DNA of 28,263 nt from Gemmatimonadota bacterium (GTDB lineage: Bacteria > 4572-55 > J002): NCBI GenBank assembly GCA_003697105.1, contig RFFQ01000178.1, forward strand, positions 1 through 28,263, written 5' to 3'. A program made the translations under genes and the position numbers. Under the pieces are notes generated by a model, which was not told where the DNA came from, searched no databases, and worked only from the letters and a program-made list of their open reading frames with translations. Positions 9,682-17,029 of this stretch are shown in pieces. Positions within the stretch are counted from its first letter, which is position 1, and every line of letters starts with the position of its first letter.

Positions 9682-12600
9682 ATGAAACACCAGTTCATTA
9701 TCCTATTGATCCTTTGTTGCTTGCCGCTTTTTGCCATCGCTCAGGAGTGGGAAGCCCAAATCTCCGGCACAACCGAAACACTGTTAGGCGTGGATTTTAT
9801 CAATGATGAACGTGGCTGGGCTGTGGGCTTTAACGGCACGTTACTGCACACCAGCGATGGTGGTGAAACGTGGACTCCGCAAATCAGTAACACCCCCAAC
9901 AACCTCTACAGCATCAATTTTGTCAGCGAACAGCGCGGCTGGGCAACCGGCGCTTTTGGTAAGATCATCCATACTACTAATGGTGGGGAACAATGGTTAA
10001 ATCAGGTGAGCGGAACCACCAACGACCTAAACAGCGTCTATTTTGTGGATAATCAACGGGGTTGGGTGGTCGGTACCGGGGGAACAATCTTACACACGAC
10101 AAACGGCGGCACCACCTGGACGCCGCAATCCAGCGGGGTGAGCCAAACCTTGTGGGATGTAACCTTTATTGATAGCCAAACCGGTTGGATCAGCGGCGCG
10201 GGCGGACAGGTGCTCCATACCACCAACGGCGGCACCACCTGGATACCGCAAGCAAGCGGCGTAACCGTCACCCTGTACGGGATCGATTTTAATACGGCAG
10301 ATATTGGCTGGGCAGTTGGTTCCGCCGGAACGATCCTTTATACCAATGACGGTGGCACCACGTGGGAAGCCCAAGAAAGTGGTGTTCAGGTGATCTTATA
10401 CGATGTGAGTGGAGTCAGCCCCACAACCGCATGGGCATGTGGCTTTTTCGGTACGATTCTCTTCACCGACACCGCCGGATTGGAATGGACAACCCAACCC
10501 AGCAACACCACCAATGCCTTGTGGGGGCTTGATTTCATCAATATTGCTAATGGTTGGGCGGTCGGCGGCGCGGGAACCATCCTGCGATATACCAGTGATG
10601 TTCTACCCGACCCCAATATCTTTGTCCATCCTCTAGCAGTGAATTTTGACAGCGTGCGGGTGGAAACCGTCGCGGATACCCTTATCCGGATCGAAAATAC
10701 CGGTGGGTTGCCTCTGAATATCCATGAAATCCGAGTTGATACGGACGCATTCGACGTGGACACCACCCAATTGGTGATCGATGCCGGACGGCGCTATCAA
10801 CTCACCGTCAGTTTCCACCCACTGGAGGAGATCGATTATCACGATACGCTACACATTTTCAGCAATGACCCCGATCAGCCGGTGATCACCGTACCGCTTG
10901 CCGGACGGGGATTTATTCCCCCCTACTGGCGACCCCAAACCACCGATACGTTCTTTAACCTGAATGACATTCTCTTTTTAAATGAACGGCAAGGCTGGGC
11001 AGTCGGCGAGACGATCCTGCGCACCACCGATGGCGGGCAACATTGGGAAGGCGAAACCGGCGGACTTCCGGCAGATTGGCAAGGTATTGCCGCTCTGGAT
11101 TCCCTGCACCTCTGGGTAGTTGCCCGAAATGGCGAAATTCAGCGCAGTATCGATGGTGGCGAGAGCTGGTCTCCTCAAACCAGCGGAACAAACTTACCAC
11201 TGTGGGACATTGATTTTGTTGAAATCGGGCACGGCTGGATTGTTGGCGCAAACGGGCTGATTTTACATACCGAAGATGCCGGCCGCCAATGGCAGTTCCA
11301 AGCCTCCAACACCAATATGGATTTGTATGCCGTTGATTTTATTGATGACCAACACGGATGGATTTGCGGGGAAGCCGGATTGATCCTCTCCACCACAGAT
11401 GGCGGGAACACTTGGACGCCACAAAGCAGTTTCACCGACCGGCGGTTAAATGATATTCAATTTGCCAATTCCCAACATGGGTGGACGGTCGGACAAGATG
11501 GCGTGATCGTACATACCACCAACGGGGGCCAGTCGTGGATACCCCAAACCAGCGGCGTGAGCACCCATCTGAACGGAATTGCGGCAAAAACCGCGGAGTG
11601 GGCATGGGTAGTGGGGCAAAACGGTACAACGCTCCGCACGGAAGACAGCGGTTTTACATGGCTAATTGAGGATTCCGGGATTACCAGTACCCTGCGCGCG
11701 GTGAGCTTCCCCCACCCCAATCGCGGTTGGACTGCCGGTGATGGGGGCACCATTTTATATGCCGAAAACCTGTATGACATTTATACCGCCATTGAACCCA
11801 ATCCGGAGACCATCGATTTTGGTGACCGCTACCTCGGTGAGCTGGCGGAACAAACCTTCAGTGTCACCAACACGGGTAATCTACCCCTGCGGGTGGATTC
11901 CATCGAACTTGCCGGAGCAACAGAATTTAGTACGGAAAATCTCTCATTCACGCTGTTGCCAGAAGACTCACGCCAGATGACCATCCAATTTTACGCCACC
12001 GAAGAAGGTATCTACACCGGAACGATTCAGATTCACAGCAATGCCGAAAATGCCAACCCGTTGGAAATTGCGGTAACTGCCAACGCGGCATTTCCCCCGG
12101 ATTGGCAAGCACAGGAAAGCGGCGTCGGGGGCATCCTTTATGCCGTCGATTTTATCGATGATTACCACGGTTGGACGGTCGGACTAAACGGGACGGTTTT
12201 GCACACCACCAACGGCGGGACAATCTGGTCGGCACAAAATAGCGGCTCAAACCGTATTCTGCGGTCGGTCTTCTTTGAATCGGATCAAAATGGCTGGATT
12301 GCCGGTACCAGTGGCGAAATTTTGCGGACAACGGACGGCGGGCAAAACTGGATCGAGCAAAACAGCGGCATCAGTACGAATCTGTACGATCTGCACTTTG
12401 TCAATGCAACAGAAGGCTGGGCAGTGGGTGCGGAGGGCATTATTTTGCACACCAGCAACGGCGGCGAAACGTGGTCACCACAGAATAGCCCGGTTAATAG
12501 TACCCTTTGGGCAGTCGATTTTGTGGATGTCAACCGCGGTTGGGCCGTGGGAGACAACGGTATTGTGCTGAGTACCATCAATGCCGGTCAGGAATGGCTG

Positions 12601-13917
12601 CAACAGACGAGCACAACGATCCAGCGCTTACGAGACGTGGACTTTTTTGATGAAAATTTCGGCTGGATTGTGGGTGATCAAGGGGTGATTTTACACACCA
12701 TCAATGGCGGGGTGATTTGGCATCATCAGGACGGCGGTACCCAACGCCACCTGACCGGTATTTCCGTGGCAACACCGGTCAATTTGCGGGCGGTCGGTTT
12801 CGATGGCACCATTTTGCGCACCGATGACGGGGGGGAGGATTGGATACCGGAAGTCAGTGGCACCTTTCTTACCTTTTGGGACGTGGACTTCCCCTCGATC
12901 AGTGATGGTTGGGCGGTCGGGTTTGAGGGAATGATCCTCAATTATTCCGCACCGAATTACCCGCAAGCCCCGGTGATTCAATCCATTATGGACGTCGGGA
13001 ATGATCAAGGGCGACAAGTGCGCCTCACGTGGGAACGGAGCGTCTATGACGGCATTAACGATGGCTATACCATCACCAGTTACGATATTTGGCGGCGAGT
13101 GGATGCCTTCCGCACGGATTGGGACTTCATCAGCACCATTCCGGCAGTGCAATCACCCACGTACAGCGTTGTCGCGCCCACGTTGGCAGATTCCACCCGT
13201 GAGAATGGCATCTACTGGTCAATTTTCAAGGTCGTGGCGCATACGGCGAACCCGTACCTCTATTTCACGTCCGTGCCGGACAGCGGTTATTCCATAGATA
13301 ACCTTGCGCCGCACCCGCCGCAGGAGATTCAAGGTGGCTTTTTCAGCGAAAATCAGTCAATTGTACTCACGTGGCAACCCAGCCCGGATGCGGATTTTGA
13401 CTACTACACCATCTATCGCGGCTTGAGCCCCGACATCACGCCCCACCCGGCTTGGCTGTATGCCATCACCAGTGACTCCACCTTCATGGATAGCGAAATC
13501 ACCCTCGGTGAAACGTATTACTATCTTATCACCGCCTATGATTTTGCCGGTAATGAAAGTGATCCCACCCCGCCGGTGGAAGTCCGCGCCGACAATATTA
13601 TTTCTGTTGATGATCCGCTCGATCAAGTGACGGCACCCCAGCGGTTGATGTTGCACCAAAACTACCCCAACCCGTTTAACCCACAAACCACAATCCGGTT
13701 TGATGTGCCGCAAGCCACTCTGGTGAGCTTGGCAATTTATAATGTGCGGGGGGCATTAGTACGGACGCTGGTTGGTGGCAGGGTTGAAGCAGGTTATCAT
13801 CAAGCAATTTGGGATGGCACAAATGATAGCGGTCAAGCGATGAAGAGTGGGGTTTACTTCTATCGTCTGGACGCCGGCGTTTTCTCGCAAACCCATTCGA
13901 TGGTGCTCTTGCGATAA
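9682..13917 (+). CDS. Secreted multi-propeller (Ycf48/BNR-like) protein with ASH-type Ig domains and T9SS-like C-terminal sorting domain
   Basis: A 1411-residue exported protein. The signal peptide covers about residues 4-20 (cleavage likely near AIAQ). Blades of about 41 residues (GWAVGxxGTILHTTNGGxTW) form three groups of exactly seven: about 24-305, 412-690 and 805-1085. Two ASH/choice-of-anchor-type beta-sandwiches separate them (about 310-410 and 698-803; NFDSVRVETVADTLIRIENTG and IDFGDRYLGELAEQTFSVTN). Fn3-like sequence follows (about 1090-1315). The end (about 1322-1411) is a FlgD-like/Por-type sorting domain: HQNYPNPFNPQTTIRF, YNVRGALVRTLV and WDGTNDSGQAMKSGVYFYRL. In FCB bacteria such tails direct type IX or related secretion. 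The ligand is unknown; Ycf48-type propellers in these lineages are mostly uncharacterised surface proteins. TAGGAGG lies 10 bases before the ATG. Confidence 0.9.
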   Translation: MKHQFIILLILCCLPLFAIAQEWEAQISGTTETLLGVDFINDERGWAVGFNGTLLHTSDGGETWTPQISNTPNNLYSINFVSEQRGWATGAFGKIIHTTNGGEQWLNQVSGTTNDLNSVYFVDNQRGWVVGTGGTILHTTNGGTTWTPQSSGVSQTLWDVTFIDSQTGWISGAGGQVLHTTNGGTTWIPQASGVTVTLYGIDFNTADIGWAVGSAGTILYTNDGGTTWEAQESGVQVILYDVSGVSPTTAWACGFFGTILFTDTAGLEWTTQPSNTTNALWGLDFINIANGWAVGGAGTILRYTSDVLPDPNIFVHPLAVNFDSVRVETVADTLIRIENTGGLPLNIHEIRVDTDAFDVDTTQLVIDAGRRYQLTVSFHPLEEIDYHDTLHIFSNDPDQPVITVPLAGRGFIPPYWRPQTTDTFFNLNDILFLNERQGWAVGETILRTTDGGQHWEGETGGLPADWQGIAALDSLHLWVVARNGEIQRSIDGGESWSPQTSGTNLPLWDIDFVEIGHGWIVGANGLILHTEDAGRQWQFQASNTNMDLYAVDFIDDQHGWICGEAGLILSTTDGGNTWTPQSSFTDRRLNDIQFANSQHGWTVGQDGVIVHTTNGGQSWIPQTSGVSTHLNGIAAKTAEWAWVVGQNGTTLRTEDSGFTWLIEDSGITSTLRAVSFPHPNRGWTAGDGGTILYAENLYDIYTAIEPNPETIDFGDRYLGELAEQTFSVTNTGNLPLRVDSIELAGATEFSTENLSFTLLPEDSRQMTIQFYATEEGIYTGTIQIHSNAENANPLEIAVTANAAFPPDWQAQESGVGGILYAVDFIDDYHGWTVGLNGTVLHTTNGGTIWSAQNSGSNRILRSVFFESDQNGWIAGTSGEILRTTDGGQNWIEQNSGISTNLYDLHFVNATEGWAVGAEGIILHTSNGGETWSPQNSPVNSTLWAVDFVDVNRGWAVGDNGIVLSTINAGQEWLQQTSTTIQRLRDVDFFDENFGWIVGDQGVILHTINGGVIWHHQDGGTQRHLTGISVATPVNLRAVGFDGTILRTDDGGEDWIPEVSGTFLTFWDVDFPSISDGWAVGFEGMILNYSAPNYPQAPVIQSIMDVGNDQGRQVRLTWERSVYDGINDGYTITSYDIWRRVDAFRTDWDFISTIPAVQSPTYSVVAPTLADSTRENGIYWSIFKVVAHTANPYLYFTSVPDSGYSIDNLAPHPPQEIQGGFFSENQSIVLTWQPSPDADFDYYTIYRGLSPDITPHPAWLYAITSDSTFMDSEITLGETYYYLITAYDFAGNESDPTPPVEVRADNIISVDDPLDQVTAPQRLMLHQNYPNPFNPQTTIRFDVPQATLVSLAIYNVRGALVRTLVGGRVEAGYHQAIWDGTNDSGQAMKSGVYFYRLDAGVFSQTHSMVLLR
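10102..10243 (+). repeat. Near-identical DNA repeats inside propeller blades
   Basis: The 19-base word AACGGCGGCACCACCTGGA occurs at 10102-10120 and again at 10225-10243, exactly 123 bases (41 codons) apart, which is one blade. Identity at the DNA level in neighbouring blades points to fairly recent blade duplication or recombination within this gene. Confidence 0.75.
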
Positions 13918-15791: not shown

Positions 15792-15820
15792 TTGACATCC
15801 ATCACCGCTAAGGTTATACT
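15792..15820 (+). promoter_or_regulatory. Strong sigma-70-type promoter for the small protein/aspartic protease pair
   Basis: TTGACA (15792-15797), a 17-base spacer and TATACT (15815-15820) make a near-consensus promoter. Transcription would start near 15827, leaving about 70 bases of leader before the first gene. It is among the best promoters in the window. Confidence 0.8.
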
Positions 15821-15898
15821 CGTGGCAAGTTAGCCTTGTAATATTGCGTATTTACGTGATTTCGCCGGGGGTTGAACCTGAAGTTGTGAGGTGGATTT

Positions 15899-16153
15899 AT
15901 GTTTATTGAAGTGTCCGAAGCGCAAGTGATTAACAAGCGTGAAATTATCGGCAAAGGCAAAGCGATTTTGAGCCGTCTGGAAAACGAAATTAAAAATCAT
16001 GAGGGTGACTATATTGTGATCGATGTGGACAGCGGTGATTACGCGATTGAGAAAGATTCCGTGAAAGCTCGGGAAAAAATGCAACTCCGCCACCCCAACA
16101 AAATTTTTTATGCGGCGCGGCTCGGATTCCCCGCGATGTACAAATTTAATTAA
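15899..16153 (+). CDS. Small conserved-type protein encoded before an aspartic protease
   Basis: An 84-residue protein without signal peptide or membrane segment. Its middle (YIVIDVDSGDYAIEKDSVKAREKMQLRHPNK) and end (FYAARLGFPAMYKF) resemble, from memory, a family of small proteins seen mainly in cyanobacteria and other environmental bacteria. Those have the pattern VAIDxxSGDYxIG...A...RxxHPxxxFYxxRxGxPA and are often encoded just before a clan AA aspartic protease, as here. No biochemical role is known to me. GAGGTG lies about 7 bases before the ATG, and a near-perfect promoter stands upstream. The stop is 11 bases before the protease start, so the two form a bicistronic unit. A toxin-antitoxin or regulator/protease relation is possible but unproven. 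Confidence 0.75.
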   Translation: MFIEVSEAQVINKREIIGKGKAILSRLENEIKNHEGDYIVIDVDSGDYAIEKDSVKAREKMQLRHPNKIFYAARLGFPAMYKFN

Positions 16154-16164
16154 GGAGGCTGACC

Positions 16165-16533
16165 ATGATCGGATTTCTGGACGATGCGAAACGTCCGAAA
16201 ATTAAATTAAATGTGGATGGTCGCCGGACAAGCCTCTCGGTCGTAGCGCTCATCGATACGGAGTTCAACGGGGATTTGTGTTTGCCGGTCGAAGTCGCCG
16301 TCCAGTTAGGTTTAGAGCCGGTACAAGTGGTCGAAGTTGAAAAAGCAGATGGCTCGATTGAAAACACGCTTGTTTTTTCCGGATTTGTGGAATGGTTCGG
16401 AGAATCCCGCGAAGTGGATATTTTACTCACCGATGCCCCAGAATCACTCATCGGGACACGCCTATTGGAACAAACCCGGATGACAATCGATTTTGTGGAA
16501 AAGATGGTGATGATCGAAAATAAAGCGGCTTAA
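16165..16533 (+). CDS. Retropepsin-like clan AA aspartic protease homologue with DTE in place of DTG
   Basis: A 122-residue single-domain protein. The active-site region reads ALIDTEFNGDLCLP, where the family normally has A-L-[IV]-D-T-G-F-[NT]-G-x-L-x-LP. The flap region (VVEVEKADGSIENTLVFSGFVEWFGE) and the C-terminal psi-loop-like strand (VDILLTDAPESLIGTRLLEQTRMTIDF, containing the usual LIGxxLL) are clear. Proteins of this size act as homodimers, each giving one Asp. The catalytic Asp is kept, but Gly is replaced by Glu. The gene has an excellent AAGGAGG ribosome site and follows the small partner by 11 bases. Substrate unknown. It is soluble, with no export signal. Confidence 0.82.
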   Translation: MIGFLDDAKRPKIKLNVDGRRTSLSVVALIDTEFNGDLCLPVEVAVQLGLEPVQVVEVEKADGSIENTLVFSGFVEWFGESREVDILLTDAPESLIGTRLLEQTRMTIDFVEKMVMIENKAA

Positions 16534-16547
16534 ACGTCTTGATAACT

Positions 16548-16589
16548 GCCCCTCACCAAATCTGATTTTGGGCGAGGGCTCTTTTTTTG
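16548..16589 (+). terminator. Imperfect rho-independent terminator after the protease gene
   Basis: CCCTC (16550-16554) pairs with GAGGG (16574-16578). After a small internal loop, CCAAA pairs with TTTGG. The hairpin is followed by CTTTTTTTGG. It lies 15 bases after the protease stop and just before the coiled-coil gene. Confidence 0.7.
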
Positions 16590-16600
16590 GTCAATGAATC

Positions 16601-17029
16601 ATGCAAACTCACGAAGAAAAAGTTGATCTGAAACAATATTTATACGATCTGCTAGTGGTAGAGAAGCGGACATCTGCGCAACTAGAGCAAAAGCGCAAAG
16701 AGGCGCAAGAATGGCACGAAAAAGCCGCATACGCCTCCGGGAAGGGTCAAGTTGATTTAGCGGCGGAAGCGGCCCAATTTGCTATGAATTTGGAAGCTGA
16801 AATGCTGACGCTGGAAAAAGAACTCCAAGAGCTAGCCGTCAAAATACAGTATTGTAAGGATCAGGTTGCTAAACCGTCATTTACACCGCTGGTAGATATC
16901 AACCAATTGCAAGCCGAATTTGAGATGCTTCTGGGGGATGAGGGGAAAGCCCTGGTATTGGACAAAAAAATCAATGACCAAAAGGTAGATGATGACCTTG
17001 CAAAATTAAAACGCCAAATGGGTCTATAA
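16601..17029 (+). CDS. Hypothetical coiled-coil protein
   Basis: A 142-residue protein, highly charged and almost wholly helical in character. A long coiled coil covers about residues 15-95 (heptads such as LEAEMLTLEKELQELAVKI), followed by a short helical tail (about 100-142). There is no signal peptide, membrane segment or known motif. The opening resembles in style PspA/IM30-like helical proteins but is too short and lacks convincing identity, so I give no family. The ATG at 16601 lies directly after the preceding terminator and has only a weak ribosome site, so expression may depend on read-through or an unseen promoter. sucD follows 65 bases later. Confidence 0.7.
   Translation: MQTHEEKVDLKQYLYDLLVVEKRTSAQLEQKRKEAQEWHEKAAYASGKGQVDLAAEAAQFAMNLEAEMLTLEKELQELAVKIQYCKDQVAKPSFTPLVDINQLQAEFEMLLGDEGKALVLDKKINDQKVDDDLAKLKRQMGL

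Follow-up and report, generated by a model that had tools for sequence, protein, structure and literature searches.

A contig of a Gemmatimonadota bacterium carries, within a window of 28,263 nucleotides (the window being the whole stretch of DNA that was analysed), two short adjacent genes, the second of which codes for a homologue of retropepsin-like aspartic proteases with a glutamate in place of the active-site glycine. The locus raises the question of what such a pair may do, and whether its unusual active site belongs to the system or to this copy.

The two genes and their products

The module lies on the forward strand behind a sigma-70-type promoter-like site, TTGACA-N17-TATACT (positions 15792 to 15820), the top promoter-like site of the region. 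The near-consensus promoter of the initial annotation is borne out to the extent of 11 of 12 consensus positions, the consensus match being its sole basis, and by chance 3.6 promoter-like sites scoring at least 9 of 12 would be expected. A Shine-Dalgarno-like GAGGTGG (15888 to 15894) precedes the gene for P0001, an 84-residue small partner protein of putatively antitoxin-like role (15899 to 16153), and a second such motif, AAGGAGG (16152 to 16158), precedes the gene for P0002, a 122-residue, putatively toxin-like protein (16165 to 16533). Both open reading frames are intact and on the same strand, in keeping with the earlier description of two short genes with good ribosome sites, and the overlap of AAGGAGG with the P0001 stop codon suggests translational coupling of the two. 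As for the terminator that had been claimed downstream of P0002, a GC hairpin followed by a T-tract is present (about 16548 to 16588), yet the hairpin is imperfect, was missed by the terminator scanner and has a folding z of -1.4; a terminator here is plausible but weak. No striking operator palindrome was found in the promoter region. Upstream, the flank holds a divergent urocanase gene; downstream come a fragment resembling PspA and a gene of the succinyl-CoA-ligase type. The pair therefore stands alone. The protein encoded directly 3' of the module (16601 to 17029, 142 residues) has a weak partial match to PspA/IM30, and elsewhere in the window (9682 to 13917) there is a 1411-residue protein that combines YCF48-like repeats with ASH/Ig-like domains and carries at its C-terminus a sorting domain of the FlgD/CHU_C type.

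P0002 is a single-domain homologue of the clan AA aspartic proteases, as the initial annotation had it, despite a marginally low score against TIGR03698 (E 2.4e-15, 56.8 bits, 0.6 bit short of the curated cut-off of 57.35); all 59 of its aligned relatives match this family. It shares with TIGR03698 (DTGF type) and with the bacterial single-domain COG5550/COG3577 peptidases the fold, the length, the D-T-x-F loop and the second hydrophobic-Gly motif, and differs in the sub-threshold TIGR03698 score and in the Glu for Gly. The predicted model (pLDDT 94.7) has a retropepsin-type beta fold and finds its best PDB matches among the retropepsins, foremost APRc of Rickettsia conorii (PDB 5c9f, 5c9b and 5c9d; Z 11.5-12.2, the best match having Z 12.2 and an rmsd of 3.1 over 114 residues), followed by the retroviral and Ddi1 enzymes (Z 9-11). 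Identity to all of these is about 20%, and the active-site Gly that they carry is replaced in P0002. The second retropepsin motif (hydrophobic-hydrophobic-Gly) is retained as LIG, whereas the catalytic D-[TS]-G triad reads DTE. Scans with Pfam, NCBIfam and PADLOC assigned P0002 to no known toxin family, the one sub-threshold match being to MazE (E 0.019). To our knowledge, the small partner does not figure in the description of TIGR03698, and we know of no P0001-like partner for APRc or for the viral or Ddi1 retropepsins.

The partner protein is less readily placed. Beyond single weak matches, neither P0001 nor its 73 aligned members belong to a Pfam or NCBIfam family, and the same scans together with PADLOC placed P0001 in no antitoxin family; it lacks both a recognised DNA-binding domain and any known antitoxin fold. 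The predicted secondary structure runs helix-strand-strand-helix-strand-strand (model pLDDT 84). A sequence comparison with solved structures returned no significant relative, and the fold search with the model gave no convincing match (best Z 3.1), from which novelty of the fold does not follow. Its relatives have in common an Arg-bearing helix at the N-terminus, the motif ID-x-E-T-G-x-Y with a beta-hairpin around it, P-x-A at the end of a second helix, and R-I-G within a C-terminal strand. Endosulfine and GroES were rejected as relatives, the matches being weak and confined to single members. Membership in DUF5678 (PF18929), proposed by analogy, was likewise abandoned: the profile matches none of the 73 members, and hhalign scores no better than with shuffled profiles, leaving homology unsupported.

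Pairing across genomes

Profiles of the P0001 relatives and of the P0002 relatives were run on 291 genomes of one phylum, taken to be the Cyanobacteria from the likeness between its copies and plasmid-borne ones of Nostoc, Tolypothrix and Trichormus. Relatives of P0001 appear in 63 of these genomes, a single genome holding as many as 12, and relatives of P0002 in 62; of the 66 genomes with either family, 59 have both (Fisher p = 7e-53). Pairs also occur in rare lineages, the window's own among them and others represented by genomes G002, G030 and G579, in accordance with the recurrence in cyanobacteria and elsewhere that the initial annotation gave for the pairing. A protease gene lies directly downstream of 90 of 114 distinct P0001 relatives, overlapping by 4 nt in about 70 of these 90. 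One of the other 24 borders a contig end, and beside the remainder there are protease remnants or nothing recognisable. Forty proteases seemed to be unpaired, and a deeper profile detected a divergent P0001 relative directly upstream of 36 of them; the remaining 4 are NTT-mutated, truncated or fragments. The initial annotation would have given up the proposal had most relatives proved unpaired, and the opposite is clearly the case. The pairing is real, widespread and far above chance. It does not extend to every related enzyme, since proteases of the DTGA type were met in other phyla without a P0001-like partner. Spurious matches in Methylobacterium from the first genome scan (L004-L008), short and inside ABC-F-type ATPase genes, were discarded.

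The two partners are also inherited together. Across pairs, the distances among P0001 sequences correlate with those among P0002 sequences (r 0.92, permutation maximum 0.07), as they do within the two subfamilies (0.87 and 0.88, permutation maxima 0.21 and 0.70), and the partners have thus rarely been swapped. At one locus (L207, in one genome) both domains are fused in a single 207-residue ORF; an apparent second fusion, in G402, proved to be a frameshifted partner. Arrays of two or three P0001-like genes with a single protease gene are found at L100, L106, L154, L156 and L173.

Plasmid copies of the module are found in Nostoc, Tolypothrix, Trichormus and Microchaete, one of them in a BREX locus, flanked by pglZ and pglX, and another adjoining a ParDE-type pair; a search for phage or viral copies found none. 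The compactness attributed to the unit is supported, and the unit is transferable as well. Among the 25 families listed, the flanks of the module hold DUF433 (three times), PIN (three), DUF2442 (three) and DUF4160 (two), and matched random regions of the same genomes hold Phd and ParE (two each). From these raw flank counts, an enrichment of other toxin-antitoxin families near the module is only suggestive. In a separate arrangement (L194:1211-1842), a gene for a HicB-like antitoxin directly precedes one for a DSGA-type retropepsin-like protein, with no HicA between them.

A toxin-antitoxin-like reading and its rivals

The reading preferred here, held at about even odds on comparative grounds, is that the two genes form a co-inherited, horizontally dispersed module that behaves as a toxin-antitoxin pair would. 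Its toxin would be the single-domain protease of retropepsin fold encoded downstream, which presumably acts as a homodimer and does harm unless restrained. The antidote would be the small alpha/beta protein encoded upstream, whose translation comes first and is coupled to that of the protease; it may bind the protease directly and hold it in check. A substrate for the protease is a further presumed element of the proposal. The reading draws on the observed pairing, gene order and coupling geometry, on co-inheritance and the one fusion, on the arrays with several P0001 copies to one protease, on the patchy, multi-copy and plasmid distribution, and on a lopsided pattern of decay. In the "stronger" subfamily both genes of a pair are intact in 69 cases; an intact P0001 gene has no intact protease adjacent in 39, and an intact protease has no intact P0001 adjacent in only 4. 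This asymmetry has a binomial p of 3e-8, or 3e-6 once gene length is allowed for, both values being optimistic, since some of the copies counted are related to one another and some lie where a contig ends.

The 4 lone proteases can each be accounted for. In G048 a transposase gene has come between the two genes; in G383 P0001 is still present further upstream; in G402 P0001 is frameshifted and other P0001 copies are present in the genome. The fourth, in G497 (L146:995-1354, G497:C8), has lost its catalytic Asp, reading NTT for DTG, and no P0001 relative was found in that genome. A protease that is kept alone only if disarmed looks, by comparison, like a toxin, and the 39 to 4 ratio agrees, on comparative grounds, with the expectation that a toxin is not retained without its antitoxin, the antitoxin being tolerated alone. 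The earlier suggestion of a toxin-antitoxin-like module is to this extent supported by the pattern of presence, absence and decay, although the lopsided decay could also come from P0001 having a useful function of its own. Other observations count against the reading: P0001 lacks the DNA-binding domain and the fold of known antitoxins, a striking operator palindrome is missing from the promoter, and the enrichment of further toxin-antitoxin genes in the neighbourhood is no more than suggestive.

The strongest rival to the toxin-antitoxin-like reading is a non-toxic pair of adaptor and protease, in which P0001 acts as an adaptor, chaperone, zymogen-like regulator or substrate and the two together process a specific cellular protein. 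Tight coupling, co-inheritance and fusion would suit any obligate partner, and the combination of a small domain with a retropepsin recurs as a design in cyanobacterial fusions of DUF5678 with DSGA-type retropepsins, in which, as in the module, the small domain lies directly ahead of the protease domain, but within one polypeptide. Characterised retropepsin-like enzymes of Pseudomonas are moreover regulatory and not toxins (PMC12239564). Simple mutual dependence, however, would leave about as many orphans of one gene as of the other, not 39 against 4, and the patchy spread, the many copies in one genome and the frequent decay are unlike a housekeeping regulator. Regulated proteolysis without toxicity is regarded as a serious but rather doubtful explanation. 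The DUF5678 fusions, which have DSGA- or NSGA-type active sites and lengths of about 190-250 residues, were seen at L209, L213, L216-L218 and L221-L225, and we know of no description of them.

Like type II toxin-antitoxin modules, the module consists of a conserved operon of two small, commonly overlapping genes with the smaller partner upstream, occurs on plasmids, and shows patchy multi-copy spread and lopsided decay; unlike them, neither of its products matches a known toxin or antitoxin family. The survey of type II systems by Makarova 2009 (PMC2701414) does not mention aspartic proteases. RloA/RimB of Pseudomonas resemble P0002 as bacterial, single-domain, retropepsin-like and operon-encoded proteins, yet they are of the DTGA type and either secreted, as RloA is, or paired with an ATP-grasp ligase, and no P0001-like partner is described (PMC12239564). 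The literature, of which coverage was incomplete, yielded no paper that treats the pair, the family TIGR03698 or an aspartic protease as part of a toxin-antitoxin system.

The DTE active site

The active-site loop of P0002 (GAT ACG GAG, 16255 to 16263) does read D31-T32-E33, as first noted, with the Glu codon GAG at 16261-16263. Scoring the residue after D-T across the family, as the initial annotation had proposed, gave DTG in 116 of 122 distinct relatives, DSG in 3, DTA, NTT and DTE in one each, the last being the window copy. DTE is, by this comparison, neither a family trait nor a property of the system. The codon is one transition (G/A) from a Gly codon, and there is no frame damage, so that of the two signs in the DTE loop that were to tell together against the proposal, uniqueness is present and adjacent frame damage is absent. 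From the chemistry of retropepsins, a Glu for the active-site Gly beside the catalytic Asp-Thr should impair or abolish catalysis. In this copy, as the sequence reads, the antidote gene is intact and the protease bears the substitution; most likely, the module of the window either was disarmed recently, its antidote being left intact, or is in fact still armed and the consensus is wrong at one base. A disabled protease with an intact antidote is the simplest account, in line with the usual mode of decay in the family.

A consensus error of the assembly, the real gene having DTG, would be explained by a single G/A difference in a draft genome of 199 contigs; it is nevertheless judged improbable, as the ORFs of P0001 and P0002 have no sign of errors elsewhere. 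The comparison within the phylum covered two genomes, and the other one has no DTGF-type pair. The same genome carries a second pair (L002:1441-2096, G000:C112), in which an 83-residue small ORF overlaps by 1 nt the gene for a 134-residue retropepsin-like protein with STSA instead of DTGA in its active site. That DTE is a functional adaptation, making P0002 a non-proteolytic binding module, is more improbable still: the reading frame and remaining fold are intact and the second pair reads STS at the DTG position, yet DTE, found once in 122 distinct relatives, is absent from close relatives and lies one base from DTG. The options that the protein needs other conditions or is a binding module accordingly gained no comparative support.

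As a disarmed member of a larger family, the DTE copy is probably of minor importance. It is tentatively proposed, with somewhat less assurance than the toxin-antitoxin-like reading itself, that this family makes up a large class of so far undescribed modules of toxin-antitoxin-like kind, with an intracellular retropepsin, an aspartic protease whose fold is akin to that of HIV protease, as toxin and an unclassified alpha/beta protein as antitoxin, perhaps serving in abortive phage defence. The 39 to 4 pattern of decay renders the toxin idea directly testable in E. coli. If it is true, an aspartic protease would join the known kinds of toxin in such systems, the unclassified partner family would receive a name, and a large group of single-domain retropepsins from bacteria, so far without an assigned function, would gain a role.
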